Shown piece after piece: positions 43,662 through 63,103 of a DNA stretch of 64,000 nt (its first letter is position 1; each line of letters starts with the position of its first letter). Location of the stretch: contig JAKLKC010000039.1 of NCBI GenBank assembly GCA_023150875.1, positions 1 to 64,000 of the forward strand, written 5' to 3'. The position numbers and the translations under genes were made by a program. The stretch is from Myxococcota bacterium. Its GTDB lineage: Bacteria; Myxococcota_A; UBA796; UBA9615; JAKLKC01. The notes beneath the pieces are model-generated. The model did no database searches and had not been told where the DNA came from. It saw only the letters and a list, made by a program, of their open reading frames with translations.

Positions 43662-45596
43662 TTGACCGCGACCACCACCGAGATCGGCCCGGGCGGGGGG
43701 GGCAGGGAGGCCCCCGCACCCCCCGCCCAGGGCTCGGGTTCCCCGCCGGCTCCTCCTCCGCCGCCCAGGCCCGGTCCGCGCCCGTGGATCCTGGGTCTGC
43801 TGAAGCACAAGTGGGCCCTCGGCGCGGCGTCCTTCGGGGCGATCTGGCTCTTCACGCTCGTGTGGAACGCTACCCTCACCGTCGTCCCCGTCCCCACCAC
43901 CCTCCTCGGCGGGGAGGACCGCCCCGGCTGGCTCGCCACGCTGCGGGACGACTTCGTCGTGGCGGGGAACGAGGCCCTCCACCCCGATCCGACGCCGTCC
44001 GCCTACTCGGACCTCCCCGTGTGGCTCTGGTCCGAGTGGTTCCACTACGGCCTCGCCATCGGCGAGTCCGCTCCCCGACTCCACCGCCCGCTGGAGCTGC
44101 CGCCGTTCAAGCCCCTCGGCGTCGAGGTCCCGGCGGACGTCGGCCCGTCCAGGCGTGGGCGGAACTGGGTCCCGAGCCGGGTGGACTACCCCCCCGCGGC
44201 GGGGGCCGCCGGGGACGCCGTCCGCCAGGTCCGGTGGACCTTCAACGGCCGACCCCACCCCGCCCTGGCCCCCACCGGCGACGGGAAGGGTGAGGGCGGC
44301 ATCGTCGTCGCCTGGCTCCAGCCCGATCGGGACGACGTCCAGGACTGGAAGCCGGGATGGGTCTGCCAGGCGGTGGAGGCCGCGCTGGCCTACGATGCCC
44401 CCGCCCAGGTCCTGGTGTGGCAGGTGGCGCACCGCCGCTTCGCGGACGCCCGGGCCGCGTTCCGCCGCATCCCCTGGATCCCGGGCCGGCCGCCGCGGCG
44501 ACCGGCAGCGTCCCGGGCCGTCACCGCCATCCCCTTCTACCTGGACCCCAAGGTCGGGCTCCAGGACCTGGACACCGCCCTGGAGCTGCTGGCCGAGTCC
44601 GTGCTGGGTGTGCCCCCCGAGCGCCTGGAGGGTCCCCCGCCCGGGGCGGACCTGCCCCGGGAGGTGGAGGCGGGGTGGCTCTGGGCGACGGACCGGACCC
44701 TGCCCGCCGCGGGGCCCGTCTATCGAGCTCCGGCCTGCCACCTGGCCGATCTGCACGCGAGGCTCGCCGGGCACCTCGCCGAGGGGGTCGACGAGGCCGG
44801 CAGGGCTCGGGACCAGGGGACGGCGCTGGCCGCCGGGTGGGCCGAGCTGTGCGTGGCCTTGGGGAGGCCGCCCCCCGCGGCGGGCGCCCCGGACTCGAGG
44901 ATCCGAGAGCTGGGGACGTGGGCGGCACGCCTCGGCGGCCTGCACCTCGGCCTCGCGGGGACCCTCGCCGCGCTGGGTCGGCCGGACCCCGAGGGGCGGG
45001 AGTGGGGGCGGTCGGACTACGCCGCCCTCGCCCGCGCGGAGCGCGCCTTCGGGGGCGCCCTCGCCTCCCTCGCCCCCGCCCTCGGGCCCCAGACCCCTTC
45101 CCCGGCCTCCCTCGCCCCCGCGGATCCTGCCCGCGACCTCGCGTCCGGCCCCCCCGAGTCCCACGCCCACGCCGCCTGGGTGTGGGGCCGGGTGGCTTCC
45201 GCCCGCTGCGACCTCACCCGGGACTGGCGCCGTGACGAGCTGGTCACCGCCGTGGGGCTCCTCCAGGGCTGGTCCCGGGACCTCGGCGGCGTCGGACTCG
45301 AGCCGGCGGACTGGCTGGCCATCGAGAGGCGGCTGTGCCACCTGACGCCCGGCCCGGAGGCCGGCGAGGCGGCACGCCGGTCCTGGGAGAACGCGGTCCG
45401 GGCGGCGGAACGCCACGCCCATCGCCCCGCCCCGGGAGCCTTCGGCGGCGACGAGTGCCGGATGGGGGAGCCGATGACCGAGGTGCAGGACGAGGGGGTG
45501 CGGCCGAGCTGCACCGACCCCGATCCCCGCCCCTACTTCGCCGCCCTCCACGAGGCCGGGTACGTGGAGGCCTGCGGGGCCGACCGGGCCCCCTGA
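43662..45596 (+). CDS. Single-pass membrane protein with large exported domain, unknown function
   Basis: The protein has 644 residues from a TTG start behind GGTGGGG. Residues 1-40 are Pro/Gly-rich and cytoplasmic; one transmembrane helix follows at about 49-67 (WALGAASFGAIWLFTLVWNA). The exported part carries many Trp residues and mixed beta/alpha sequence; the C-terminal region from about 400 is helical and Ala-rich. I recognise no family. A 20-codon frame, ATG 43603 to TGA 43665, lies between the previous gene and this one and its stop overlaps this TTG (TTGA). It is the last gene before the dcw cluster. Confidence 0.55.
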   Translation: MTATTTEIGPGGGGREAPAPPAQGSGSPPAPPPPPRPGPRPWILGLLKHKWALGAASFGAIWLFTLVWNATLTVVPVPTTLLGGEDRPGWLATLRDDFVVAGNEALHPDPTPSAYSDLPVWLWSEWFHYGLAIGESAPRLHRPLELPPFKPLGVEVPADVGPSRRGRNWVPSRVDYPPAAGAAGDAVRQVRWTFNGRPHPALAPTGDGKGEGGIVVAWLQPDRDDVQDWKPGWVCQAVEAALAYDAPAQVLVWQVAHRRFADARAAFRRIPWIPGRPPRRPAASRAVTAIPFYLDPKVGLQDLDTALELLAESVLGVPPERLEGPPPGADLPREVEAGWLWATDRTLPAAGPVYRAPACHLADLHARLAGHLAEGVDEAGRARDQGTALAAGWAELCVALGRPPPAAGAPDSRIRELGTWAARLGGLHLGLAGTLAALGRPDPEGREWGRSDYAALARAERAFGGALASLAPALGPQTPSPASLAPADPARDLASGPPESHAHAAWVWGRVASARCDLTRDWRRDELVTAVGLLQGWSRDLGGVGLEPADWLAIERRLCHLTPGPEAGEAARRSWENAVRAAERHAHRPAPGAFGGDECRMGEPMTEVQDEGVRPSCTDPDPRPYFAALHEAGYVEACGADRAP

Positions 45597-45844
45597 TCGC
45601 CCCCGGCGCCGGGCCGCCGATCCACGGTGATCCACCGTCGGGAGCGGCCTCAGCCGCCCTCTCCCCGCCCATCCCCGCGCTCCGGCCCCCACATCGGGAG
45701 GGGGATCCCGGGGGGCGTGTGGCGATACGGAACACATTCACCCCCACGGGTAGTGCTCCATTTCGCTTCATGCACCACATCTGGTGGCCCCGGCCGCGCG
45801 GTCGCCATGGCCCGCCAAACGTTGAAAACAAAGGAAAAAAGACG
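45597..45844 (+). other. Intergenic region before the dcw cluster, AT-rich at its end
   Basis: About 250 bases without a gene. A weak hairpin ACGGTG/CACCGT (45624-45638, 3-nt loop) follows the upstream stop. The last 30 bases (about 45815-45844, with GAAAACAAAGGAAAAAAGA) are unusually A-rich for this genome and sit directly upstream of the mraZ -35 box, the position of an UP element. Nothing else is seen. Confidence 0.45.
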
Positions 45845-45874
45845 TTGACAGCCCCGCGGAGCCCGACCTAATGT
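45845..45874 (+). promoter_or_regulatory. Sigma70-type promoter of mraZ and the dcw cluster
   Basis: A perfect TTGACA (45845-45850) is followed after 18 bases by TAATGT (45869-45874, weak -10). The A-rich tract directly upstream supports a strong promoter. MraZ-type boxes begin at the end of the -10. Confidence 0.6.
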
Positions 45875-45907
45875 GGGCCCACGTGGATCGTGGTGGATCG
45901 AATGGGA
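45873..45907 (+). promoter_or_regulatory. Candidate MraZ operator (four TGG[G/A] boxes)
   Basis: Four direct repeats, GTGGG (45873-45877), GTGGA (45883-45887), GTGGA (45893-45897) and ATGGG (45902-45906), are spaced by 10, 10 and 9 bases. E. coli MraZ is known to bind TGGGN repeats with 5-nt spacers upstream of its own gene. Position between the -10 and the mraZ start fits autorepression of the whole cluster. Confidence 0.65.
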
Positions 45908-45955
45908 TCAGGACGGCATCGAGTGGCGACCTCGGGGCGGCGGAGAGCCTGAGGG

Positions 45956-46417
45956 GTGTACCAGGTCCGCGGCCAGTTCCACGTCACGATGGACGACAAG
46001 GGCAGGCTCGCCCTGCCGGCGCGCCTGAAGGACGCGTTGCAGAAGCACGGCGACGAGTCCCTGGTGCTGACCTACTTCGGCGGTGGGGTCCACGGGTACA
46101 CGCAGGCGACCTGGAGGCGGCTGGAGGAGAGGTTCGCGGACATCTCGCCCTTCGACCGGAGGAACCGCGCGTTCCTGCACGGTTTCATGGCGAACGGCAC
46201 CGAGGTCCCGGTGGACCGGCTCGGGCGGACGTTGCTCCCCCAGTATCTGCGCCAGAAGGCGGGACTGAGCAAGGAGCTGGTGGTCATTTCGTACCTGGGG
46301 TGGATCGAGGTCTGGGATCGCGTCCGCTGGGAGGAGCGCCTCGAGGAGGCGACGCGAGAGATGGACGAGACGGGCGGGCCGCAGGAGTTCCTGGTGGGGA
46401 TGGAGGAGACGGCCTAG
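45956..46417 (+). CDS. mraZ: Transcriptional regulator MraZ
   Basis: The protein has 153 residues, usual for MraZ. Two AbrB-like (SpoVT) halves are visible: MYQVRGQFHVTMDDKGRLAL with PARLKDAL, and GTEVPVDRLGRTLLPQYLRQ, with the DxxGR motif in both. The GTG start opens directly at the family N-terminus. MraZ forms ring-shaped oligomers that bind the dcw promoter and repress it; candidate boxes lie 50-80 bases upstream. rsmH follows after 13 bases. Confidence 0.95.
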   Translation: MYQVRGQFHVTMDDKGRLALPARLKDALQKHGDESLVLTYFGGGVHGYTQATWRRLEERFADISPFDRRNRAFLHGFMANGTEVPVDRLGRTLLPQYLRQKAGLSKELVVISYLGWIEVWDRVRWEERLEEATREMDETGGPQEFLVGMEETA

Positions 46418-46430
46418 GGAGGATCGCGAG

Positions 46431-47372
46431 GTGACGTACCACGTGCCGGTGATGGTCCGTGAGGTGCTCGACGCCCTGCGGGTCCGGCCGGACGGTCGGT
46501 ACCTGGACGGGACGGCGGGGGGCGGCGGGCATGCGGAAGCCATCGCCGCCCGGTTGTCGGAGCGGGGGCGGCTCGTCGCCCTGGATCGGGACGAAGAGGC
46601 GGTGGCGGCGGCGGCGGCGCGGTTGGCGCCGTATGGGGATCGGGTCGTGCTGGCGAAGTCGGCGTTCTCGCGGATGGAGGAGGTGGTCCGGGACCTGGGA
46701 CTCGGGACCGGATCGTTCGACGGGGTGCTGCTGGACCTGGGCGTCAGCAGCCGGCAGGTGGACGATCCCCTGCGGGGCTTCTCCTTCCAGAAGGAGGGGC
46801 CCCTGGACATGAGGATGGACCGGGGCCAGCCGACCACGGCGCGGGACCTGGTGAACGGAGCGGAGGAACGAGAGCTGGCGGCGATCTTCAGGGACCTGGG
46901 GGACGAGCCGAGGGCGGCGCGGATCGCCCGGGAGATCGTCCGGCGGAGGGCGGAGGGGCCCATCGAGACCACGACGGACCTCGTGAAGGCGGTGGAGGCG
47001 GCGGTGGGCCCCCGGGGCGCCCGCAGCCATCACCCCGCGACGCGGGTGTTCCAGGCGCTGCGGATCGCCGTGAACCGGGAGGTGGAGGAACTGAACGAGG
47101 GGCTCGGCGCGGCCTTCCGCCTGCTGGCGCCCGGGGGCCGGCTGGCGGTGATCGCGTTCCATTCCGGTGAAGACCGGGCGGTGAAGAGGTTCATGCGGGA
47201 CCGGGAGGGGAGGTGCGCGTGCCCCCCCGAGGTCCCGATCTGTGTGTGCGGGCGGAAGCCAGAGCTCCGGGAGGTGCGCCGGGGCGGGGTCACCGCCGGT
47301 GAAGACGAGGTCCGGGCCAATCCCCGGGCGCGCTCGGCCCGACTGCGGATCGCCGAGCGGATCCCGGGCTGA
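46431..47372 (+). CDS. rsmH: 16S rRNA (cytosine-1402 N4) methyltransferase RsmH
   Basis: The protein has 313 residues. It begins MTYHVPVMVREVLDALRVRP (GTG start) and has the SAM-binding GTAGGGGHAEAIA (residues 27-39), FDGVLLDLGVSSRQVD, RGFSF, GPLDMRMD and the late AVIAFHSGEDRAVKRFM motif, all diagnostic. It methylates N4 of C1402 in the 30S P site. Second gene of the cluster, between mraZ and ftsL as usual. Confidence 0.97.
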   Translation: MTYHVPVMVREVLDALRVRPDGRYLDGTAGGGGHAEAIAARLSERGRLVALDRDEEAVAAAAARLAPYGDRVVLAKSAFSRMEEVVRDLGLGTGSFDGVLLDLGVSSRQVDDPLRGFSFQKEGPLDMRMDRGQPTTARDLVNGAEERELAAIFRDLGDEPRAARIAREIVRRRAEGPIETTTDLVKAVEAAVGPRGARSHHPATRVFQALRIAVNREVEELNEGLGAAFRLLAPGGRLAVIAFHSGEDRAVKRFMRDREGRCACPPEVPICVCGRKPELREVRRGGVTAGEDEVRANPRARSARLRIAERIPG

Positions 47373-47534
47373 GCCGGGCGAGGGGAGCGAAGAACCGTCC
47401 GGGGAGGGCCCGCGGCCCCGGGGACACGGCATCGCGGGTCGCTGTTCGCAGGGAAGTCAAGGGTCGGGCGCAGGACGCGCCCGGCCCGAGGGGGGCGGGT
47501 CGCGGCAGGAGGTCCGCTCCCCCACGGAGGTACC

Positions 47535-47912
47535 ATGGCGGTCGCCGCGTCCACTCGCACGTCACCCGTTCACGCCCCCGAGACCCGGGTGGAGGTCCAC
47601 CCCGGTGGACTCGACGCCCCGGTCCGGGTCGTCTCACCCCCCCCCGCGCCCCGGTCGGGGATCGGCGTGCTCGCCGTGGTGGGCGCCTTGCTGGGTGGCC
47701 TGGTCATCGCCGGGGTGCGGATGGAGCACCGCGACCTGGGGTACCAGCGGGAGGAGGTCGGCCGGCGCCTGGAGGAGGCCCGGGAGGAGCAGGCGCGCCT
47801 CGCGGCCCGCCTCGCCGAGCTGCGGGCGCCGGACCACCTCGGGCCCGCCGCGGCCGCCCTCGGCCTCCACGCCCCCGATCCCGGCCAGATCCATCGCGTC
47901 GAGGCGCCCTGA
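47535..47912 (+). CDS. ftsL: FtsL-like cell division protein
   Basis: The protein has 125 residues. It has the FtsL layout rather than clear sequence identity: a 40-residue cytoplasmic part, one membrane helix (about 43-62, GIGVLAVVGALLGGLVIAGV), a coiled coil (EEVGRRLEEAREEQARLAAR) and a short C-terminal part with GPAAAALGLHAPDPGQIHRV. Its place between rsmH and ftsI makes the call firm. FtsL forms the FtsQLB divisome complex with FtsB and FtsQ. GGAGG precedes the ATG. A 162-base gap separates it from rsmH. Confidence 0.85.
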   Translation: MAVAASTRTSPVHAPETRVEVHPGGLDAPVRVVSPPPAPRSGIGVLAVVGALLGGLVIAGVRMEHRDLGYQREEVGRRLEEAREEQARLAARLAELRAPDHLGPAAAALGLHAPDPGQIHRVEAP

Positions 47913-47932
47913 GGGCGGAGGGGCAGGGGACC

Positions 47933-50149
47933 GTGGAGCGCCCGAGGACCAACAGGAGCCGCCCGGCGGCGCCGAGGGGGACGGCCGCCCCCCGCCGGGG
48001 TGGCGCGCCGCCCGGGCGTGGGCCGGACATCGCCGCGCGGACGCGGGTCGTGCTGGGCCTGTTCGCCCTGGCCCTCGCCGCCGTCCTGGGGCGCGCCGTC
48101 TGGCTGTCCGCGGTCCCGAACGAGCAGCTCTCCGCCGCGCTGCGCCGCCAGCAGCAGGCGACGGTCAAGCTCAACCCCCGGCGGGGCCGGATCCAGGACC
48201 GCGCCGGGAGGGACCTCGCCGTCTCGGTGACCGTGCCGTCGGTCTTCGCCGATCCCCAGTTCCTGGTGGAGACGGGGGGGGATCCCGTGGACGTCGCCGC
48301 CCGGCTCGCGCCCCTGCTGGACCTGCCCGCCGCGGACCTGGCCAAGGCGTTGCGCGCCCCGGGGCGGTTCGTGTGGCTCGCGCGCCAGGTCCCCACCGAC
48401 GTCGCCACCGCCATCGAGGAGCTCCGATTGCCCGGCGTGCGGGTGACCGACGAGTTCGAGCGGCGCTACCCCAACGGGACCCTCGCGGGGCAGGTGCTCG
48501 GGTTCACCGGCACCGACGGGGCGGGCCTGGAGGGCCTGGAGAAGCGCTTCGACTCCCGCCTCCGGGGTCGCGAGGAGCGCCACACCGTCCTCCGGGACGG
48601 GAAGCGGCGGAACATCACGCCGGAGGGGGTGGCGGTGACCCGGGAGGTCCAGGGGGACGACCTGGTCCTGACCCTGGACCGCAACATCCAGTTCGCCGCA
48701 GAGCAGGCGCTGGCGGAGGCGGTGACGAAGTGGGAGGCCCGGGCTGGCCTCGTGGTGGTCATGGACGTCCAGACCGGCGCGGTGCTCGCGCAGGCCACGG
48801 CACCCCCCATGGACCCCAACTACTTCGCCCGCTACGACCGCTCCACCTGGCGGGACATGTCCCTTTCCTTCAACTATGAGTCGGGATCGGTGCTCAAGGC
48901 GTTCCTGATCTCGTCGGCCCTGGAGGCGGGCGTGGTGACGCCCGACACCCGCTTCGACTGCGAGCTCGGCGCCTACAGGTTCGGCCGGAGGACCATCCAC
49001 GACTCCCATCCCTACGGGGTGCTGGACGTGAGGGAGATCCTGAAGGTGTCGAGCAACATCGGCACCACCAAGGTCGCCGAGCGCCTGGGAGCCGAGGCGG
49101 TGTGGAGCTGGTACCGTGCCTGGGGGTTCGGGCAGCCGACGGGGATCGACCTCCCCGGGGAATCCGGAGGCATCCTGCGGCATTGGAAGAGCTGGTACCC
49201 CATCGACCTCGCCACCCACGCCTTCGGCCAGGGGGTCTCGGTCACCGGGCTCCAGATCGCCGCCGCCCTCTCCGCCGTCGCCAATGGCGGTCGCCTGATG
49301 AGGCCGTACATCGTGCAGGAGGTCCGCTCCCCCGACGGCTCCGTCGTCGAGAGGACCGAGCCCACCGAGGTGAGGCGGGTGATCTCCCCCGGGACCGCCG
49401 CCGAGATGCGCGGGATGATGGCGGGGGTGATGGAGGAGGGGGGCACCGGGACCCTGGCGAGGCTCGACGACTACACCGCCGCCGGAAAGACCGGCACCGC
49501 CCAGAAGGTCAACCCCGAGACCGGGCGCTACCAGTTCTGGGTCAGCTCGTTCGTCGGCTTCGCGCCCGTCGAGGACCCCCGGGTCGCCATCGTGGTGACC
49601 CTGGACGAGCCCAGGCGGCATCACTACGGCGGCACGGTGGCGGGACCGGTGTTCCGGGCGGTGGGCCGACAGGCGCTGACCACCCTGGACGTCGATCCGC
49701 TCCCCGACCGGATGGCCCGCCTGCCCGTGAACACCCCGGCCCCGGCGGGACCGGCCGCGCCGCCCTCCAGCCCCGCGCTGGCCGGTGCCGGTTCGGGATC
49801 CGGGACCGCGGCGGCCGCGGGGGAGCTTCCCCCCGCCGTCATGCCCGACCTGCGGGGGGCGTCCCTGCGGGAGGCCCTGCGGCGCCTCGCCGGCGTCCAG
49901 GCCCGCATCGACCTGGAGGGCTCGGGGGTGTTGACGGAACAGCACCCCGCGCCCGGGGCGCGCCTCGCCGGGATCTCCTCGGTCCGACTCGCCTTCGCGC
50001 CCCCAGCGCCCCCTCCTCCGCCGAGCGCCCCGGGCGGTGGCCTGGGGTCCGCCCCCGTGGCCGCGCCCGGTGCCGCGGCTGCCCCAGCGGCCACCCCCGG
50101 GAGGGTCGGGTCCCCCGGGGCCCACCGCCGCGAGGGGGACCTCCCTTGA
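47933..50149 (+). CDS. ftsI: Septal peptidoglycan transpeptidase FtsI (PBP3) with PASTA domain
   Basis: The protein has 738 residues, longer than E. coli FtsI. After a basic tail comes one membrane anchor (about 39-57), then the pedestal domain (RRGRIQDRAGRDLAVSV). The transpeptidase has SxxK at Ser319 (SVLK), SxN at 373-375 and KTG at 519-521; the usual YEPGS is YESGS here. After a Pro/Ala linker a PASTA domain (about 623-690, PDLRGASLREALRRLAG) is attached, known from Gram-positive PBP2x and many deltaproteobacterial FtsI. It crosslinks septal peptidoglycan with FtsW. GTG start; its TGA overlaps the TTG of murE. Confidence 0.96.
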   Translation: MERPRTNRSRPAAPRGTAAPRRGGAPPGRGPDIAARTRVVLGLFALALAAVLGRAVWLSAVPNEQLSAALRRQQQATVKLNPRRGRIQDRAGRDLAVSVTVPSVFADPQFLVETGGDPVDVAARLAPLLDLPAADLAKALRAPGRFVWLARQVPTDVATAIEELRLPGVRVTDEFERRYPNGTLAGQVLGFTGTDGAGLEGLEKRFDSRLRGREERHTVLRDGKRRNITPEGVAVTREVQGDDLVLTLDRNIQFAAEQALAEAVTKWEARAGLVVVMDVQTGAVLAQATAPPMDPNYFARYDRSTWRDMSLSFNYESGSVLKAFLISSALEAGVVTPDTRFDCELGAYRFGRRTIHDSHPYGVLDVREILKVSSNIGTTKVAERLGAEAVWSWYRAWGFGQPTGIDLPGESGGILRHWKSWYPIDLATHAFGQGVSVTGLQIAAALSAVANGGRLMRPYIVQEVRSPDGSVVERTEPTEVRRVISPGTAAEMRGMMAGVMEEGGTGTLARLDDYTAAGKTGTAQKVNPETGRYQFWVSSFVGFAPVEDPRVAIVVTLDEPRRHHYGGTVAGPVFRAVGRQALTTLDVDPLPDRMARLPVNTPAPAGPAAPPSSPALAGAGSGSGTAAAAGELPPAVMPDLRGASLREALRRLAGVQARIDLEGSGVLTEQHPAPGARLAGISSVRLAFAPPAPPPPPSAPGGGLGSAPVAAPGAAAAPAATPGRVGSPGAHRREGDLP

Positions 50150-51660
50150 GCGGGCTGGCCCCGGCGCCCCTCTCCCGCCTCCTCCAGGCCCTCCCCGAGG
50201 TCCCGGAGCGGCGGGGGGCGCCGGACGTGCCCGTCCGCGGCCTCGCCTACGACTCCCGGAGGGTCGGCCCGGGGGAGCTGTTCGCGGCGATCCCCGGCTC
50301 CACCGCCGACGGGCACCGCTTCGTGGCCCAGGCCATTGCCGCCGGGGCCTCCGCCGTCCTGTTGCGGGACTGGCCCGAGGGACCCTGGCCCGCAGGGGTC
50401 GCCGGGGTCCGGGTGTCCGATCCCCGCCGCGCCCTCGCCCGCCTCGCGGCCGCCCTCCACGGGGACCCGTCCCGGGGGATGACGGTGGTGGCGGTGACCG
50501 GCACCAACGGCAAGACCACCAGCGCCTCGCTGATCGCGGGGATGCTGGCCGCCGGCGGGGCGCGGACCGCGCTGCTGGGCACCACCGGGACCTGGTTCGA
50601 GGGGGAACGCCGCCCCTCGGAGCGCACCACCCCCGAGGGGGCCGACCTGCACGCCCTCCTGGGCGAGCTCCGCGCCCGGGGCGCCGGCGCCGTCGCCCTG
50701 GAGGCCTCCTCCCACGCCCTGGACCAGGGGCGGCTCGCGGGTCTCCACGTGGACGTCGCCCTCTACACCCACCTCAGCCGGGATCACCTTGACTACCACG
50801 GGTCCATGGACGCCTACGCCGCGGCCAAGGAGCGTCTCGTCACCGAGGTGCTGGCCCAGAGCGGCAAAGGCGGGCGGCGGGGGCTCGCCGCCAACGCCGA
50901 CGACCCCGCCGGGGCCGCCATCGCCGCCAAGTGGCCGAATACGCTCCGGTTCTCGGCACGGGGCCAGGCGCGGGCCGACGTCGCCGTGGAGGAGGCCCGC
51001 TTCGGGATCGACGGGTTCGAGGCCCGGGTGCGGACGCCCCGCGGCCCCGTCGAGCTCCGCTCTCCCCTCGTGGGCGCGCACAACCTGGAGAACGCCCTGG
51101 GGGCGCTGGCGGTGGGCCTGCTCCTGGGTCTCTCCGCCGAGGACGCCGCCGCGGGGATCGGGGCCGTGGGGAGCGTGCCCGGGCGCCTGGAGAGGGTGAG
51201 GGCGGAGGGGACGGGGCCGTCGGTTTTCGTGGACTACGCCCACAGCGACGACGCCCTCGCCCGCGTGCTGGAGGCGCTCCGCCCCCTCACCCGGGGCCGG
51301 CTCACGTGCGTGTTCGGTTGCGGCGGGGACCGCGACCGGGGCAAGCGCCCGCTGATGGCGGCGGCGGCGGCCCGGGGGGCCGACCGGGTGGTCCTCACCA
51401 GCGACAACCCCCGGAGCGAGGACCCCCTCGCCATCCTCGCCGACGCCGCCGCCGGGCTCCCCCCGGGCGCCGACGCCGTCGTGGAGCCCGATCGCGCCTC
51501 GGCCATCGCCCTCGCCGTCGCCGAGGCCGGGCCGGACGACGTCGTCCTGGTGGCCGGGAAGGGCCACGAGGGCTATCAGGAGGTGGGGACCCGGCGCGTG
51601 CCCTTCGACGACCGGGCCCACGCGCGCGCCGCCCTCGCGGCGCCGAGGAAGGCTCGATGA
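50146..51660 (+). CDS. murE: UDP-MurNAc-L-Ala-D-Glu:meso-DAP ligase
   Basis: The protein has 504 residues from a TTG start overlapping the ftsI stop (TTGA). The ATP site is TGTNGKTT (118-125). YDSRRVGPGELF near the start and the diaminopimelate-selecting motif DNPR (420-423, DNPRSEDP) indicate that meso-DAP, not lysine, is added. VLVAGKGHEGYQ is near the end. It acts in the cytosol as the third amino-acid addition step. The upstream part of the open frame belongs to the ftsI region in another frame and is not coding here. Confidence 0.96.
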   Translation: MSGLAPAPLSRLLQALPEVPERRGAPDVPVRGLAYDSRRVGPGELFAAIPGSTADGHRFVAQAIAAGASAVLLRDWPEGPWPAGVAGVRVSDPRRALARLAAALHGDPSRGMTVVAVTGTNGKTTSASLIAGMLAAGGARTALLGTTGTWFEGERRPSERTTPEGADLHALLGELRARGAGAVALEASSHALDQGRLAGLHVDVALYTHLSRDHLDYHGSMDAYAAAKERLVTEVLAQSGKGGRRGLAANADDPAGAAIAAKWPNTLRFSARGQARADVAVEEARFGIDGFEARVRTPRGPVELRSPLVGAHNLENALGALAVGLLLGLSAEDAAAGIGAVGSVPGRLERVRAEGTGPSVFVDYAHSDDALARVLEALRPLTRGRLTCVFGCGGDRDRGKRPLMAAAAARGADRVVLTSDNPRSEDPLAILADAAAGLPPGADAVVEPDRASAIALAVAEAGPDDVVLVAGKGHEGYQEVGTRRVPFDDRAHARAALAAPRKAR

Positions 51661-53114
51661 CGGCCGCGTCCCAGGCGTTCGCGCCCCCGTTCCGGTTCAC
51701 CGCCGAGGCGCTGGTCTCCGCCGTCTCCGGCCGCGCCGCCGCGCCCCTGCCGCCCGGCACCTGGTCCATCACCACCGACTCCCGCCTGTCCGGCCCCGGA
51801 CGGGTGTTCGTCGCGCTGCGGGGCGAGAAGCTGGACGGCCACGCCTTCGTCCGGGACGCCCTGGCCTCCCCCGGCTCGGGGGCGATCGTCGAGGGGGGCC
51901 ACCCCGCCCTCGCCGGGCTCGACCCCGGCCCCGGCCGCTTCGTGGTGGAGGTCCGGGACACCTCCCAGGCCCTCCTGGCCCTGGGGCGCGCCGCCCGGGA
52001 CACCTTCCAAGGCCCCGTGGTGGCCCTGACGGGATCGGTGGGCAAGACCACCACCAAGGAGATGATCGCGGCGATCCTGTCCCAGCGCGGGGCGGGGCTG
52101 GCCACCGAGGGCAACCTCAACAACCTGGTGGGCGTCCCCCTCACCCTGCTCCGGCTCTCCGCCGACCACCGATGGGCGGTCCTCGAGATGGGGATGAACG
52201 CCTTCGGCGAGATCGACGCCCTCGCCCGCTGCGCCCGGCCGGGGGTGCGGCTGATCACCCGGATCGGCCGCGCCCACCTGGAGCGGCTCGGGGGGATCGA
52301 GGGGGTCGCCCGCGCCAAGGGAGAGCTCTTCGCGACCGCCGGGCCGGGGGACGTGCTGGTGGTGAACGCCGACGACCCCATGAGCCCCACCCTCCCCGTG
52401 CCCGAAGGGGTGAGGGTGGTGCGGTTCGGCGAGGCGACCGGGGCCGAGGTGAGGGTGCTGGCGGCCCGGCGGGAGGGGATCGACGCCTGGAGGGCGGTCT
52501 TCGCCCTCGGGGACGAGTCGGTGGACGTGCGGGTCCCCCTGGCGGGCCGGCACAACCTGGGCAACGCCCTCGCCGCCGCTGCCGTGGCCTACGCCCTGGG
52601 ACTCTCCGGCCCCGAGGTCCGGGTCGGCCTGGACGCCGTGCGGGCCCCCGCGATGCGCATGCAGGTGGTGGAGCTCCCCGGGGGGGCGGTGCTGATCAAC
52701 GACGCCTACAACGCCAACGAGACCTCGGTGGCGGCGGCCCTGCGGACCCTCGCCGACGAGCCCGCCCCCCTGCGGGTGGCCGTGCTGGGCGACATGCTGG
52801 AGCTGGGGGCGGCGTCCCTGGCCTCCCACCGCGAGGTCGGTCGCCTCGCCGCGGGCTCGGGTCTCACCCTGCTGGTGGGGGTGGGGCCCCACTCGGCGGA
52901 TACGGTGGCGGCGGCGCGGGCGGCGGGCCTGCCCGAGGCCCGGGCCCAGCACGCGCGCACCCACGCCGAGGCGGCGGCCCTGGTGCGCCCCTTCGTGGTG
53001 CCGGGGGCCCGGATCCTCCTGAAGGGCTCCCGGGGCATGGCGATGGAGAGGGTCGCGGAGATCCTCCTGGAGGCTCCGGCCGGCCCGGAGGCCCGGGGAG
53101 GCGAGGAAGCCTGA
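51657..53114 (+). CDS. murF: UDP-MurNAc-tripeptide D-Ala-D-Ala ligase
   Basis: The protein has 485 residues, start overlapping the murE stop (ATGA). It has SITTDSRLSGPGRVFVAL, the ATP loop LTGSVGKTTTKEM, NLNNLVGVPLTLL, EMGMNAFGEI and the catalytic-domain INDAYNANETSV with HNLGNALAAAAVAY. It joins D-Ala-D-Ala (from Ddl) to the tripeptide to give the UDP-MurNAc-pentapeptide. A 120-base gap to mraY follows. Confidence 0.96.
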   Translation: MTAASQAFAPPFRFTAEALVSAVSGRAAAPLPPGTWSITTDSRLSGPGRVFVALRGEKLDGHAFVRDALASPGSGAIVEGGHPALAGLDPGPGRFVVEVRDTSQALLALGRAARDTFQGPVVALTGSVGKTTTKEMIAAILSQRGAGLATEGNLNNLVGVPLTLLRLSADHRWAVLEMGMNAFGEIDALARCARPGVRLITRIGRAHLERLGGIEGVARAKGELFATAGPGDVLVVNADDPMSPTLPVPEGVRVVRFGEATGAEVRVLAARREGIDAWRAVFALGDESVDVRVPLAGRHNLGNALAAAAVAYALGLSGPEVRVGLDAVRAPAMRMQVVELPGGAVLINDAYNANETSVAAALRTLADEPAPLRVAVLGDMLELGAASLASHREVGRLAAGSGLTLLVGVGPHSADTVAAARAAGLPEARAQHARTHAEAAALVRPFVVPGARILLKGSRGMAMERVAEILLEAPAGPEARGGEEA

Positions 53115-53234
53115 CGCGACTCGGGGCGGGCCGCGAGCCCTGCCCCCGGCGCGGAATCCATGTATCGTTCACCGCTCGCCCCGGCCGGCCACCGTCCCGG
53201 GGGGAGCGCGACCCGTTGTCCGGGGAAGGGCGAA

Positions 53235-54314
53235 GTGCTCTACCACCTCCTCGTCGAGCTGCGGAGCAGCTCCATCCTCTTCAACGTCTTCCGGTACATC
53301 AGCTTCCGGACGGCGGCGGCCATGATCACGGCCCTGCTGATCGCCTGGCTTGTGTACCCCCCGTTCATCCGCCTCCTCCAGCGGATCCGCGTGGGACAGA
53401 TGGTGCGGACCGACGGCCCGGAGACCCACAAGGTCAAGCAGGGGACCCCCACGATGGGGGGGCTGGTGATCCTGGCGGCGACGGTGCTCTCCACCCTGCT
53501 CTGGGCGCGCCTGGACAACCCCCTGGTGTGGGGGACCCTGGCCATCGCCGTCGCCTTCGGCGCGGTGGGGTTCATGGACGACTACCAGAAGGTGACCCGG
53601 AAGGACACCCGCGGCGTCTCCGGCAAGGCCCGGCTGGCCATCGAGGCGGTCGCCACGGCGGCGGTGATGGGAGTGCTCGTGTACCGGTACGCCCTCTCCA
53701 CCGTCGTGGCGGTCCCCTTCCTCAAGGACGTCGGCCTCGACCTGGGGGCCCCGGGCTACGTCGTGTTCTCGACCCTGGTGATCGTGGGGTGCGCCAACGC
53801 CGTCAACCTGACCGACGGGCTGGACGGCCTCGCCATCGGGCCGGTGATGACCTCGGCGATGACCTTCGCGGTGCTCGCCTACCTCGCCGGCAACTTCAAG
53901 TATGCGGAATACCTACAGATTCCTCCAGTGGCGGGCGCGGGGGAGCTCACGGTGCTCGCCGTCACCATCGTCGGCGCCGGGCTGGGGTTCCTCTGGTACA
54001 ACACGTTCCCGGCCTCGATCTTCATGGGGGACACCGGCAGCCTGCCCCTCGGGGGCGCCATCGGGGCCCTGGCCTTCCTCAGCAAGAACGAGCTGCTGCT
54101 GGCCCTCGTGGGCGGGGTCTTCGTGGTGGAGGCCCTCTCGGTGATCGTGCAGGTCGCCTCGTTCAAGACCACGGGCCGGCGGGTGTTCCGGATGGCGCCC
54201 ATCCACCACCACTTCGAGCAGCAGGGGATGTCCGAGCCCAAGGTGATCGTGCGCTTCTGGATCGTGTCCATCCTCCTCGCCCTCTTCGCCCTGATGACCC
54301 TCAAGCTGCGGTGA
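53235..54314 (+). CDS. mraY: Phospho-MurNAc-pentapeptide translocase MraY
   Basis: The protein has 359 residues, the normal length, from GTG 53235 at the family start VLYHLLVELRSSS; GGGGAAGGG lies upstream. Ten membrane helices are expected. Catalytic motifs are intact: TPTMGGLVIL, DDYQKVTRKDTRGVSGKAR, NLTDGLDGLA, and the APIHHHFEQQG loop. It moves phospho-MurNAc-pentapeptide onto undecaprenyl phosphate to make lipid I. The frame opens earlier (53160), but those codons do not match the family. Confidence 0.97.
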   Translation: MLYHLLVELRSSSILFNVFRYISFRTAAAMITALLIAWLVYPPFIRLLQRIRVGQMVRTDGPETHKVKQGTPTMGGLVILAATVLSTLLWARLDNPLVWGTLAIAVAFGAVGFMDDYQKVTRKDTRGVSGKARLAIEAVATAAVMGVLVYRYALSTVVAVPFLKDVGLDLGAPGYVVFSTLVIVGCANAVNLTDGLDGLAIGPVMTSAMTFAVLAYLAGNFKYAEYLQIPPVAGAGELTVLAVTIVGAGLGFLWYNTFPASIFMGDTGSLPLGGAIGALAFLSKNELLLALVGGVFVVEALSVIVQVASFKTTGRRVFRMAPIHHHFEQQGMSEPKVIVRFWIVSILLALFALMTLKLR

Positions 54315-54316
54315 CC

Positions 54317-55690
54317 ATGGAACAGCTCGCCCTCGCCGGCCGCCTCGTCGTCGTCGTCGGCCTCGGTCTCTCGGGGCAGGCGGCGGTGCGCCTGCTGGCC
54401 GCCCAGGGCGCCCGGGTGGTGGCCAACGACCGGCGGGGCGAGGCGGAGCTGGGGGAGGTCGCCGCCCGGGTGCGGGCCGTGGGGGCGCGGATCGTGGCGG
54501 GGGACCACCCTCCGGAGCTGGCCCGGGGGGCGGACCTCGTGGTGGCCTCCCCCGGGGTCCCCCCCTCGAACCCGGTGCTGGCCGCCGCCCGGGCGCGGGG
54601 GGTGCCGGTTTGGGGGGAGCTGGAGCTGGGCTGGCGCGCCCTGCCCGGGGTGCCCTTCGTGGCGGTCACCGGGACCAACGGGAAGTCCACGACGACGACG
54701 TGGACCGGGGGCCTGCTGGAGGCCGCGTTCCCCCGGGTCTTCGTGGGGGGCAACCTGGGCCTCCCCCTGTGCGACGCCGCGGCGGAGGGGGGCTGGGACG
54801 TCGCCGTGGTGGAGGTCTCCAGCTTCCAGGCCGAGACCGCGCCCTCCCTGCGGCCGGCGGCGGCCGCGGTCCTGAACGTCACCCCCGACCACCTGGACCG
54901 CTACCCCGACGTCGCGGCCTACGCCGCCGCCAAGGCGCGCCTGTTTCGCCTCCAGGGGCCCGGGGACCGGGCGGTCCACCGGCGTGGCGATCCCCTGGCG
55001 GAGGGGGTCGCGCGGTCGGGGCGGGCGGGGATCTCCTCCTTCGGCCTCGGCCCCCTGCCCCAGGGCGGCGAGGCGGGTGCCGGGTGGGAAGGAGGGGAGC
55101 TGCTGCTGCGGCCCGAGCCGGGGGGAGAGGTGGAGGCCTACTCCCTGGACGGGTTCACGGTGGCGGGCACCCACAACGTCGAGAACCTGATGGCGGCGGC
55201 CCTGCTGGCCCGGTATGCCGGCGCCCCGCCCGAGGCCGTCGCGGCGGCGATCCCCCGCCTGCGCTCCCTGCCCCACCGCCTGGAACCCGCGGGCGAGGCG
55301 GCGGGAGCCGCGTGGTACGACGACTCCAAGGCCACCAACGTCGACTCCGCCCGGGCCTCCGTCGGGGGGCTCCCCGGCCCCGTGGTCTGGCTGCTGGGGG
55401 GCCGCCACAAGGGCTCCCCCTACACCCCGCTCAGGGACGTGGTCCGGGGCAGGGTGCGGGCGGTGGTGGCCTTCGGCGAGGCCGGCGACCTGGTGGCCCG
55501 GGACCTGGCGGGCGCAGGGGCCGACGTCGTGCGGGTGCCGGGGCTCCGGGACGCGGTGAGGGCCGCCGCCGGCCTGGCCCGGCCAGGGGACGCGGTGGTC
55601 CTCTCGCCGGCGTGCAGCAGCTACGACGAGTTCCGGAACTTCGAGGAGCGGGGACGCGCCTTCCGGGCGTGGGTGGAGGAGCTGCCGTGA
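54317..55690 (+). CDS. murD: UDP-MurNAc-L-Ala:D-Glu ligase
   Basis: The protein has 457 residues. It begins MEQLALAGRLVVVVGLGLSG, has the ATP loop VTGTNGKSTTT, VEVSSFQAE, TPDHLDRY and YDDSKATNVDSARA, all typical of MurD. It adds D-glutamate to UDP-MurNAc-L-Ala. A GTG at 54311, two codons earlier, overlaps the mraY stop (GTGA) and may be the actual start; the difference is two residues. Confidence 0.96.
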   Translation: MEQLALAGRLVVVVGLGLSGQAAVRLLAAQGARVVANDRRGEAELGEVAARVRAVGARIVAGDHPPELARGADLVVASPGVPPSNPVLAAARARGVPVWGELELGWRALPGVPFVAVTGTNGKSTTTTWTGGLLEAAFPRVFVGGNLGLPLCDAAAEGGWDVAVVEVSSFQAETAPSLRPAAAAVLNVTPDHLDRYPDVAAYAAAKARLFRLQGPGDRAVHRRGDPLAEGVARSGRAGISSFGLGPLPQGGEAGAGWEGGELLLRPEPGGEVEAYSLDGFTVAGTHNVENLMAAALLARYAGAPPEAVAAAIPRLRSLPHRLEPAGEAAGAAWYDDSKATNVDSARASVGGLPGPVVWLLGGRHKGSPYTPLRDVVRGRVRAVVAFGEAGDLVARDLAGAGADVVRVPGLRDAVRAAAGLARPGDAVVLSPACSSYDEFRNFEERGRAFRAWVEELP

Positions 55691-56850
55691 ACCTCGTGCC
55701 CCGGGGCGTGGACCGCGCCCTGCTGCTGTCGGTGGTCTCCCTGGTGGTGCTCGGCGTCACGATGGTCTACTCCGCCGGGGGGATCTACGCCGCCGACCTC
55801 CACGGGGACCGGCTGTTCTTCCTGCAGCGCCAGGCCCTCTTCGCCGGGGTGGGGCTGGCGGGGATGGCGGTGGTGGCCCGGATCCCCTACCAGGCGTATC
55901 GCCGCTGGACCTACCCCGCCCTCGGCCTGGTGGCGGTGCTCCTGCTGGCGGTCCTGGCATTCGGGACGTCGGCGGGGGGCGCGACCCGCTGGCTGCCCCT
56001 CGGGCCGTTCCAGTTGCAGCCCAGCGAGCTCGCCAAGCCGGTCCTGCTGGTCTACCTCGCCTACTCGCTGGAGAAGAAGCAGGAGCTGATCGAGACCTTC
56101 GCGGTCGGGATCCTCCCCCACCTCGTGGTGGTCGGGACCATCCTCGCGCTGATCCTGGTGGAGCCCGACTTCGGCACGACGATGACCATCGCCGCGATCC
56201 TGTTCGCGATGATGTTCGTCGCCGGCACCCGGCCCCGCCACCTGCTCGCCCTCGGCGCGGTGGGCGCGCCCGCCGCGTACTTCGTGCTGATGGGCGCCGA
56301 GTACCGCCGCAAGCGGATGATGGCCTTCTGGGATCCCTGGGCGGACCGGGAGGGCACGGGGTACCAGCTCATCCAGTCCTGGCTCAGCTTCCACGGGGGC
56401 GGCGTGACCGGGCTGGGCCTGGGCAACGGCCTCCAGAAGCTCCACTTCCTGCCCGCCGCCCACACGGACTTCATCTTCGCGGTGATCGGCGAGGAGCTGG
56501 GACTCGCAGGGGTGGCCCTGGTGCTGGGGCTGTTCGGGACCCTGGTGTATCGCGGGGCGCGCTGCGCCTCGTTCGCGCCGGACCTCTTCGGGCGCCTGCT
56601 GGGGACCGGGATCACCTTCATGATCGGCCTGCAGGCCTGCTTCAATATGGGGGTGGTGACGGGGATGCTGCCCACCAAGGGCCTCACCCTGCCCTTCGTC
56701 AGCTACGGCGGGTCGTCGCTGGTCTTCGGCCTGGCCATGGTGGGGGTCCTGCTCAACATCTCCGCCCAGGCCAGCCGCCGGTCCGCCACCACGAAGCGCG
56801 AGTCGGAGGCCCGGGCGGACCACCCCGACCCCGAGCCGGTGGGGGCCTGA
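55687..56850 (+). CDS. ftsW: Septal peptidoglycan polymerase FtsW
   Basis: The protein has 387 residues with about ten membrane helices. SEDS motifs are clear: ATRWLPLGPFQLQPSELAK, LVEPDFGTTM, the large loop with YQLIQSWLSFHGGGVTGLGL, HTDFIFAVIGEELGL (catalytic Asp) and LTLPFVSYGGSSL. FtsW polymerises lipid II glycan strands at the septum with FtsI. GTG start overlaps the murD stop. A short basic/acidic tail follows the last helix. Confidence 0.96.
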   Translation: MNLVPRGVDRALLLSVVSLVVLGVTMVYSAGGIYAADLHGDRLFFLQRQALFAGVGLAGMAVVARIPYQAYRRWTYPALGLVAVLLLAVLAFGTSAGGATRWLPLGPFQLQPSELAKPVLLVYLAYSLEKKQELIETFAVGILPHLVVVGTILALILVEPDFGTTMTIAAILFAMMFVAGTRPRHLLALGAVGAPAAYFVLMGAEYRRKRMMAFWDPWADREGTGYQLIQSWLSFHGGGVTGLGLGNGLQKLHFLPAAHTDFIFAVIGEELGLAGVALVLGLFGTLVYRGARCASFAPDLFGRLLGTGITFMIGLQACFNMGVVTGMLPTKGLTLPFVSYGGSSLVFGLAMVGVLLNISAQASRRSATTKRESEARADHPDPEPVGA

Positions 56851-56854
56851 TCCC

Positions 56855-57982
56855 GTGGCGCGGGTGCTCATCGCCGGTGGAGGCACCGGGGGCCACTTCT
56901 TCAGCGGGATGGCCGTAGGGGAGGCGTTCGTCGCCCGGGACCCCAAGAACCAGGTCGTCTACGTGGGCACCCGGTCCGGGATCGAGGCCAGGGTGGGCCC
57001 CCGGGAGGGGTTGGACGTGCGGTTCGTGCGGGTGAGCGGCCTCAAGGGCAAGGGAGCGGCGGCGAGGGTCGCCGGCCTGCTCCGCCTGCCCCTGGCCCTG
57101 TGGGACAGCCTGGTCCTGCTGCTCCGCCTCCGCCCCGCCCTGGTGGTGGGCGTGGGCGGGTACGCCTCGGGGCCGGTGGTGCTGGCGGCGAAGCTGCTGC
57201 TGCGCCCGACGGCCATCGTGGAGCAGAACAGCATCCCCGGGTTCACCAACCGCGTGCTGGGCCGCGTCGTCGATCGGGTCTTCACCGCGTTCCCCGAGAC
57301 CGCGGCGTACTTCCCCCGGCGGCGGGTGGTGTTCACCGGCAACCCCATCCGGCGCCGCCTCGCCGAGACCCTGACCCTGGAGAACCGCTCCACTCCCGGC
57401 CCCGCGGCCGGCGGGGAGGTCCACGTCCTGGCCTTCGGGGGAAGCCAGGGGGCGCGGAGCCTCAACCGGGCAATGGTGGCGATGGTCTCGGAACTCCCGG
57501 CCGGGCTGCGGGGCCGGATCCGGGTGGTGCACCAGACCGGAGAGCACGACCACGCCGAGGTCGTCGCCGGCTACGCCCGGGCCGGCTTCGACCGCGTAGA
57601 GGTGCTTCCCTTCATCCACGACATGGCCGGGGCATACCACGAGGCGGACCTGGTGGTCTGCCGCGCCGGCGCCTCCACCCTGGCGGAGGTCACCGTGAGC
57701 CGGCGCCCCTCGGTGCTGGTGCCTTACCCCCACGCCATCTACAACCACCAGGAGCTCAACGCCCGCTCGCTGGTGGACCGGGGGGCGGCGGTGATGCTGC
57801 TGGACCGCGACCTGGGCGGGGCCTCCCTGGCCGGGGCCATCGCCGGGCTCGTGTCCGACCCCGAGCGCCTCGCGCGCATGGCGGCGGCGGCGGCGGACCT
57901 GGGCCGGCCCCAGGCGGCCCTGGACGTCGTGGACGAGTGCTACCGCCTCGCCGGCCTGCTGCGCTCCCCCCGGGCGAGGTGA
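56855..57982 (+). CDS. murG: UDP-GlcNAc:lipid I N-acetylglucosaminyltransferase MurG
   Basis: The protein has 375 residues from GTG 56855. It begins with the acceptor loop [15 protein letters not shown] (the usual P is S), then [35 protein letters not shown] and [13 protein letters not shown]. It adds GlcNAc to lipid I on the inner face of the membrane to make lipid II. It follows ftsW by 4 bases. Confidence 0.96.
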
Positions 57983-57993
57983 CGAGGACCGCC

Positions 57994-59382
57994 GTGGCCC
58001 GCTTCCGCAAGACCCGCCGCATCCACTTCGTCGGCATCGGGGGCATCGGGATGAGCGGCATCGCCGAGGTGCTGATCGACCAGGGCTACGAGGTCTCCGG
58101 CAGCGACCTGAAGCCGGGGGCGGTCACCCACCGCCTGGAGGGCCTGGGCGCCGCGGTGCGCTACGGCCACGAGGCGGGGAACGTCCGGGGCGCCCACGTG
58201 GTGGTGCGGTCCAGCGCCGTCGGGGAGGACAACCCGGAGGTGCGGGCGGCGGTAGACCTGGGGATCCCGGTGATCCCCCGGGCGGAGATGCTGGCGGAGC
58301 TGATGCGGATGAAGCACGGGCTCGCCGTCGCCGGGACCCACGGCAAGACCACCACCACGTCCCTGCTGGCCACCTGCCTCGCCGCGGCGGGCCTGGACCC
58401 GACGGTGGTGGTGGGGGGCCGGATCAAGGCCCTCGGCACCAACGCCCGCCTGGGCCAGGGGGAGTACCTGGTCGCCGAGGCGGACGAGAGCGACGGCTCC
58501 TTCCTGAGGCTGTCGCCGACCATCGCCGTGGTCACCAACATCGACCCCGAGCACCTGGACCACTACGGCGACTTCGAGGCGGCGAAGGACGCGTTCCTCC
58601 GGTTCGTGGACCGCGTGCCCTTCTATGGCGCCGCCGTCCTGTGCCTGGACCACCCGGTGATCCAGGACATGCTGCCCCGGGTCAGGAAGCGCGCCATCAC
58701 CTATGGGCTCGCCTCCCAGGCGGACTTCCGGGCAACGTCCATCGGGCACTCCGGCACCGAGTCCACCTTCACGGCCCACCGGAGGGGAGAGGTGCTGGGG
58801 GACGTGCGCCTCGCCATGCCCGGGCGCCACAACGTCCTCAACGCCCTGGCCACCATCGCGGTCTGCGACGAGCTGGACGTCCCCTGGGAGACGGTGCGCT
58901 CCGCCCTGTCGGAGTTCGGCGGCGTGGGGCGGCGCTTCGAGGTGAAGGGGGTCCGGCGGGGCGTGACCGTGGTGGACGACTACGCCCACCACCCCGAGGA
59001 GATCCGGGCCACGCTGCGGGCGGCGCGGGATGGTTTCCCGGGCCGCCTCGTCGCCGTCTTCCAGCCCCATCGCTACAGCAGGGTGCGGGACCTCTTCGCC
59101 GAGTTCGTGCGGGCGTTCAACGATGCCGACCTGCTGTACGTCACGCCGATCTACGCCGCGGGGGAGGCGCCCATCCCGGGGATCGACGCGGATGCCCTGT
59201 GGCGGGGGCTGCGGGAGCACGGGCACAAGACCGCGGGCCTGGCGAACGGGCGCGGGGACCTGGTGCGGGAGGTCGCGGCGGCGGCGCGCCCCGGGGACGT
59301 GGTGATCTCCCTCGGCGCCGGCGACATCACGACCTTCGGCGACGAGCTGCTGGGGGCCCTCGGGCCCCCGGCGGGGGAGTAG
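57994..59382 (+). CDS. murC: UDP-N-acetylmuramate:L-alanine ligase
   Basis: The protein has 462 residues from GTG 57994, which has AGGA five bases upstream; an earlier GTG at 57979 overlaps the murG stop and is the alternative. It has [17 protein letters not shown], the ATP loop [31 protein letters not shown] and [11 protein letters not shown], all diagnostic of MurC. It adds L-Ala to UDP-MurNAc, the first peptide step. murB follows after 6 bases. Confidence 0.96.
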
Positions 59383-59388
59383 GGGGCG

Positions 59389-60369
59389 GTGGCGCGGGGG
59401 CTGGACGCGCTGGCGCGGTCGGAGCTCCTGGAGATCGACCCCGGGGAGGTCCTCTTCGACGAGCCGATGTCGGCCCGGACCGGAATCGGGATCGGTGGGC
59501 CCGCCGACGCCTTCGTCCGGGTGCGGGACGTCGAGTCCCTCCGGGGCCTCCTGGCCTGGTGCCGCCGTTCGCGGGCCCGCGCCCTGGTGATGGGGGAGGG
59601 CGCCGGGCTGCTGGTGGCGGACGCCGGGATCGGGGTGGTGATCGCCCTGGGAGAGGCGTTCGGCGTCATCGAGTCCTCGCCCGCGGGCGGGGACGCGCCG
59701 GAGGGGGACGCGGGTGGGAAGGTGTCCGCTCCGGGCGAGGCCCGGGTGCGGGCGGGGGCCGGCGCGCGCCTTGCGGACGTCCTGGCCTTCGGCCGGGAGC
59801 GGGGGCTGTCGGGGCTGGAAGCCCTCGCGGGTCTGCCCGGCACCGTGGGCGGCGCCCTGGCGATGGGAGCGGGCGGCAGGGGAGGGGGGCTGCCTACGGC
59901 GGTGGCCTCGGTGACCTGGCTGACCACCCGGGGGCGCCTTGAAGAGGTCCCCCGGGAGGCGCTGGACTTCGGGGCCGGGGGCCTCGCCGTGCCCGAGGGG
60001 CACGTCATCGTCGCGGCGGAGCTGCTCCTGCGCCCCTCCTCGCCCGAACGGGTGGGGGCGGCGATGGAGGCGGCCGCCGCCCGCAGGGCCGGGTCCGAGC
60101 CCAAGGGGGTGCGCGCGGCGGGGGGCGTCTTCCGCGACCCCGCGATGGGGGAGCCCGCCGGAGAGGTGATCGAGCGCCTCGGGCTCAGGGGGATCCGCAT
60201 CCGCGGAGCGAGGATCAGCGAGGTCCACGGCAACTGGGTGGTGAACGAGGGGGGCGCTACGGCCAGGGACGTCCTGCTGCTGATGGACTACGTGCGGGAC
60301 CGGGCCCGGCGGGAGGCGGGCGTGGAGCTGGTGGACGCCCTGCGGGTGGTCGGCCGGGTCAGGAGATGA
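59389..60369 (+). CDS. murB: UDP-N-acetylenolpyruvoylglucosamine reductase MurB (divergent)
   Basis: The protein has 326 residues from GTG 59389. FAD-domain landmarks are recognisable but altered: GIGIGGPADAFV, GEGAGLLVAD (usual GGSNLLV), LAGLPGTVGGALAMGAGG and RGARISEVHGNWVVN with the conserved Glu278. At the catalytic proton-donor position the sequence is AAGGVFRDP where MurB has AGSVF(K/R)NP or the Cys variant, so Gly246 replaces Ser/Cys. It should reduce the enolpyruvyl group to lactyl with NADPH/FAD. Its place between murC and ddl makes the identity secure; activity is the open question. Last gene before a separate promoter-like site. Confidence 0.9.
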   Translation: MARGLDALARSELLEIDPGEVLFDEPMSARTGIGIGGPADAFVRVRDVESLRGLLAWCRRSRARALVMGEGAGLLVADAGIGVVIALGEAFGVIESSPAGGDAPEGDAGGKVSAPGEARVRAGAGARLADVLAFGRERGLSGLEALAGLPGTVGGALAMGAGGRGGGLPTAVASVTWLTTRGRLEEVPREALDFGAGGLAVPEGHVIVAAELLLRPSSPERVGAAMEAAAARRAGSEPKGVRAAGGVFRDPAMGEPAGEVIERLGLRGIRIRGARISEVHGNWVVNEGGATARDVLLLMDYVRDRARREAGVELVDALRVVGRVRR

Positions 60370-60442
60370 GGCGGTCCTGCCCCCCGATCCGGCACCGCAT
60401 GAACCTCACCCGGGCGATTTTCCTGGAGGGCCACTTTTCCTT

Positions 60443-60471
60443 TTGACAGCATGATCACGCTTTACCAGAAT
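60443..60471 (+). promoter_or_regulatory. Internal sigma70-type promoter upstream of ddl
   Basis: TTGACA (60443-60448) and CAGAAT (60466-60471) are spaced by 17 bases (6/6 and 4/6). The surrounding 60 bases are less GC-rich than the cluster. The -10 overlaps an in-frame ATG at 60470, so the transcript must use the later ATG at 60494. Confidence 0.62.
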
Positions 60472-60493
60472 GACCGGACGGGACTCAGCGAAC

Positions 60494-63084: not shown

Positions 63085-63103
63085 GGGGAACGGGAGGCGG
63101 CAG

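Follow-up and report, generated by a model that had tools for sequence, protein, structure and literature searches.

A predicted three-box MraZ autoregulatory operator at the mraZ promoter of a Myxococcota bacterium

MraZ forms a ring, which is an octamer in Mycoplasma, and the Mollicutes hosts are AT-rich. The MraZ site of Mollicutes was given as (AAAGTGKN3)3 (Fisunov et al. 2016, as quoted in an excerpt of PMC5282649), and the mraZ operator of E. coli (Eraso et al. 2014) is of the three-box form according to the excerpted text of PMC8475190. In the E. coli K-12 sequence, three GTGG at 10-bp steps follow TTGACA-18-TAAACT, the second hexamer of which we read as the -10 of the mraZ promoter, and a degenerate GGGG comes next on the same lattice. 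For the promoter PmraBc of Burkholderia cenocepacia, an excerpt of PMC7761207 describes four repeats of 7 nt, separated by 3 nt each and located downstream of the -10; MraZ bound the fragment carrying them in EMSA. For M. genitalium, two cryoEM entries of MraZ with its promoter exist (9R4J and 9SZ7), the latter bearing the entry title "MraZ in complex with 4 box promoter".

The window analysed here is a stretch of 64,000 nucleotides from a Myxococcota bacterium, in which mraZ extends over positions 45956..46417 (+ strand) and encodes 153 amino acids. The assignment of this ORF to MraZ in the preliminary description was confirmed. The Pfam MraZ family was matched with an E-value of 2e-22 and 79.4 bits (cut-off 23) in two stretches corresponding to two MraZ domains, and NCBIfam TIGR00242 was the top-ranked family with 93.3 bits, 5 below its cut-off of 98.35. 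Two D-x-x-G-R motifs (D13/G16/R17 and D87/G90/R91), which we take to be DNA-binding, are invariant in an alignment of 40 sequences from 55 MraZ loci, that of the window included. The predicted fold (mean pLDDT 93.2) matches MraZ of M. pneumoniae (1n0f_B; Z 19.6, rmsd 1.9 over 138 residues, 27 % identity) and also MraZ solved with its promoter. Upstream of mraZ, a 644-aa ORF (43662-45596) is located, which has no Pfam match.

The region ahead of mraZ very probably represents an ordinary MraZ autoregulatory operator, composed of three direct GTGG boxes at the mraZ promoter. The promoter has a -35 hexamer TTGACA (45845..45850, +) agreeing with the consensus in six of six positions and, after a spacer of 18, a probable -10 hexamer TAATGT (45869..45874, +), which agrees with TATAAT in only three of six positions and was missed by a consensus promoter scan. 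Judged by the usual spacing, transcription would start near 45881. Four TGGR sequences are present at and directly after this weakly matching -10 on the + strand, 53-82 bases ahead of the mraZ start (45956): TGGG at 45874, TGGA at 45884 and 45894, and TGGG at 45903, with steps of 10, 10 and 9 bp. In three of the repeats the core is GTGG (45873, 45883 and 45893), forming an exact 10-bp lattice of GTG-containing direct repeats at the mraZ promoter. Scores in bits were derived from a weight matrix of the relatives' boxes only (n = 109) and amounted to 7.19 for candidate MraZ box 1 (aatGTGGgcc, core 45873..45876, +), 6.93 for candidate box 2 (cacGTGGatc, core 45883..45886, +) and 7.61 for candidate box 3 (gtgGTGGatc, core 45893..45896, +). 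With this matrix, the three-box lattice from 45873 reached the top score on both strands of the 64-kb window. A palindromic reading of the region (GTGGGCCCAC, 45873-45882; CCACGTGG, 45880-45887) was set aside by eye, as it is not kept in same-order relatives.

Box 1 and the -10 overlap by two bases: the first GTGG begins 4 nt past the -10 start and includes the last two bases of the hexamer, an arrangement also present in two relatives (L005 and L007). In L008, ATGG rather than GTGG is found 4 nt past the -10 start, the box of L004 is offset by 13 nt, and the mraZ upstream regions of L006 and L009 revealed no convincing promoter. Given this offset, obstruction of the -10 would fall to box 1 and that of the start site to boxes 2 and 3. 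Like the window, E. coli has three sound boxes with GTGG at exact 10-bp steps behind a TTGACA-18 promoter; its box 1, however, lies 13 nt past the -10 start versus 4 nt in the window. The Mollicutes site, as quoted, shares its consensus and 10-bp period with the consensus of the class to which the window belongs (AAAGTGGR), but permits K (G/T) after GTG, where the boxes of the window read GTGG. In B. cenocepacia, the repeats, as far as excerpted, are likewise placed downstream of the -10 and over the transcription start, yet four of them are full compared to three sound boxes in the window. The entries 9R4J and 9SZ7 agree with the window in MraZ fold and box principle, the DNA being compared by entry titles only, while their MraZ is 27 % identical to that of the window across 138 aligned residues.

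The search for MraZ covered 58 genomes including the window's own, 56 of which were matched (no mraZ was found in G005 and G034). Readable mraZ upstream regions were available for 54 relatives besides the window, L058 being left out of all box counts for want of upstream sequence; dropping two near-duplicates (L011 of L010, L020 of L019) yielded 52 loci for the matrix, pair, G-quadruplex and alignment counts. Across the 54 relatives, 71 pairs of GTGG are spaced at exactly 10 bp, whereas shuffled sequences gave 0.9 on average and at most 4. Pairs are also frequent at 20 bp (41 vs 0.7), 30 bp (18 vs 0.7) and 21 bp (16 vs 0.7), and all remaining distances account for at most 6 pairs each. A 10-bp pair occurs in 35 of the 52 non-duplicate loci, comprising 109 boxes with the consensus AAAGTGGRDN, and none was detected on the + strand of the other 17, among them all nine loci (9/9) of genus g16, family f7. 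When the loci were aligned by the box that opens their longest chain, information per column was confined to the box columns: it amounted to 0.9-2.2 bits at the GTGG positions of boxes one to three, against 0.11 bit on average in the flanks. Since GTGG was the selection criterion for the first two boxes, the third box and the flanks provide the fair test. The check proposed with the preliminary description, namely whether the boxes are kept in the relatives' mraZ upstream regions while the flanks drift, thus supports the predicted MraZ operator, the identity of which is further indicated by the known consensus and by its place.

Several observations on individual relatives are added here. Two of the f7/g16 loci devoid of a + strand array (L034 and L044) harbour two reverse-strand GTGGG boxes 20 bp apart, possibly an altered MraZ operator; scoring of reverse-strand boxes in family f7 revealed no consistent 10-bp array. 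L016, L017, L013, L018, L033, L025 and L057 contain long arrays, with five to seven boxes, and gaps of 20-22 bp in some of them suggest that a box was skipped or shifted. A DnaA-box-like element (TTATCCATA) is located about 130-155 nt before mraZ in seven of the nine g16 loci (L032, L036, L037, L040, L044, L047 and L049), and L014 contains a perfect inverted pair, TTATCCACA-GC-TGTGGATAA, about 110-120 nt before mraZ. The latter has no other occurrence in 71 genomes of the class, and the window has no DnaA-box-like element. Sites of this type before mraZ may hint at a link between replication initiation and the dcw cluster.

That the repeats are chance G-rich sequences of a GC-rich genome is extremely unlikely. 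Taken alone, three TGGR at exact 10-bp steps are weak evidence, as the single occurrence of this pattern in the window stands against 0.15 expected from dinucleotide shuffles, 13 of 100 of which contain at least one. Moreover, the strict pattern of three GTGGR at 10 bp occurs twice in the window's own genome, at mraZ and at G000:C180:127434 (reversed-pattern control, 1), and the four-TGGR pattern is likewise found at mraZ and at one further place, G000:C110:56501. The site is, however, positioned at the mraZ promoter, scores highest in the window with the relatives' matrix and is strongly conserved, and it is this conservation in relatives that refutes the chance reading in substance. The match at G000:C180:127434 was considered as a further MraZ site, but it is located where a small reverse ORF begins, and we regard it as chance. 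A wider MraZ regulon in this genome was rejected, the loose three-TGGR pattern (117 forward and 135 reverse matches) being too unspecific in view of control counts of 84 and 85.

Conservation of the G-rich boxes could alternatively reflect a G-quadruplex, as proposed for the mraZ promoter of S. aureus, where, according to the accessible text of PMC11796246, a G-rich stretch at the same place, after the promoter, is treated as a G-quadruplex drug target. This is very unlikely for the class studied here. A three-tier G-quadruplex motif was found in only two of 52 relatives and in one of the 70 named loci listed (see below), compared to 35 and 53, respectively, with 10-bp GTGG pairs, and only 47 of 109 boxes continue with a G after GTGG. 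In the window, the motif (four runs of at least 3 G, loops of 1-7) is absent from both strands, and a G-quadruplex as the conserved feature was accordingly rejected. In a term search of the main text of PMC11796246, neither MraZ boxes nor direct repeats came up. The comparison suggests that the S. aureus stretch is placed where MraZ boxes are found in other bacteria, and it may itself be the MraZ operator.

The operator had previously been described as consisting of four boxes. All four TGGR are indeed present, but they are unequal: three are sound (6.9-7.6 bits), and the fourth is doubtful (ATGG, 45902..45905, +; 9 bp past box 3). Its TGGG at 45903 is not preceded by the leading G, and ATGGGA scores 2.28 in its own 9-bp register and -1.02 on the lattice, so that no fourth GTG box was found on the lattice of the window (45903). 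In the 21 relatives with at least three chained boxes, GTGG is present at +30 in eight, and neither GTGG nor ATGG occurs at +29 or +31 in any. Five relatives of the same order could be read in this region, and each of them has a chain of three boxes, at 10+10 bp in four and at 10+20 bp in L009. The further proposal of an operator larger than the three-box form in this lineage was hence not upheld, the fourth site being off the lattice and without counterpart in any relative, and the same-order relatives chaining to three. Most likely, the TGGG at 45903 is not a full box and at best a weak one. An additional GTGG (GTGGC, 45923..45926, +; score 4.68), which is absent from the preliminary description, stands alone on the same 10-bp lattice at +50 and is possibly a weak box; of the 21 relatives, one has GTGG at this position.

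It is rather unlikely that the operator truly has four or more boxes, with the fourth one bound despite its 1-bp shift and a larger complex being formed. In its favour, the TGGG at 45903 is followed by ATC as in boxes 2 and 3, strict four-box arrays are located at mraZ in eight genomes of the class, and spacings of 9 and 11 bp separate some boxes elsewhere (e.g., in L033 and L016). These points are countered by the missing leading G and the low score, by the lack of [GA]TGG at +29 in all 21 relatives (0/21) and by the three-box chains of the same order. The strict four-GTGG pattern matches 14 of 71 class genomes, the window's own not being among them; the eight matches at mraZ belong to other families, and the remaining six are elsewhere or unchecked with respect to mraZ. 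An equally doubtful but broader view would regard the MraZ operator of the class as an evolving 10-bp lattice, holding two to about seven boxes depending on the family, with skipped or 1-bp-shifted positions. The window would then display a three-box core, a decaying or emerging fourth box (45903) and an outlying sixth position (45923), and the number of boxes would tune the strength of autorepression.

Irrespective of the window, box number is variable across bacteria, and four boxes are common. Among the matches listed, 80 named RsmH-linked loci were obtained, 71 with mraZ and 70 with a usable upstream region (L128 was dropped, as no start was found). In these 70, the longest series of GTG cores spaced by exactly 10 bp comprises one core in 11 loci, two in 24, three in 24, four in 10 and five in 1, and the ten genomes with four cores are mostly Bacillota. 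Runs of at least two GTGG were found in 53 of the 70 on the coding strand vs 2 of 70 in the strand control. Four-box operators are therefore not new, given B. cenocepacia, the title of 9SZ7 and the 10 of 70 listed named genomes.

The mraZ gene is the first of the dcw cluster, all genes of which from mraZ via rsmH to ftsA reside on one strand. It is followed by rsmH (mraW; 46431..47372, +; Pfam 4.4e-106; TIGR00006, 321.7 bits, over the cut-off), a 125-aa ORF without Pfam match in the place of ftsL, and a gene for an ftsI-like division-type transpeptidase with a PASTA domain (47933..50149, +; Pfam). Further downstream are Mur ligases in the places of murE, murF, murD and murC, an mraY-type transferase, ftsW, murG, murB, ddl, ftsQ and ftsA, which extends beyond the window end; names were assigned by domain and order. 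Control of this whole cluster by MraZ, as suggested in the preliminary description, is plausible judging from the sequence, and only that, since no terminator-like sites were found from 45600 to 64000, yet a promoter-like TTGACA-17-CAGAAT (60443-60471), the sole such site found in this range, directly precedes ddl. The reach of MraZ differs between bacteria; in M. genitalium, mraW, MG_223 and ftsZ are affected and MraZ is termed a repressor (excerpt of PMC8475190).

For the three-box operator, we infer binding, repression and downstream reach in the cluster by analogy to relatives. The three direct GTGG boxes, one helical turn apart, would begin inside the -10 and span the transcription start. 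On these, the MraZ ring could dock its DNA-binding loops at successive boxes along one face of the DNA and thereby block RNA polymerase. As a consequence, MraZ would limit its own synthesis as well as that of the co-transcribed genes behind it.

The predicted operator extends a known operator type to an unstudied lineage, which is of little significance in itself. Across the 54 relatives and the 70 listed named loci, however, the number of boxes differs widely while the 10-bp period stays fixed, and this variability would suit testing how operators of two, three, four or more boxes are read by the MraZ ring.
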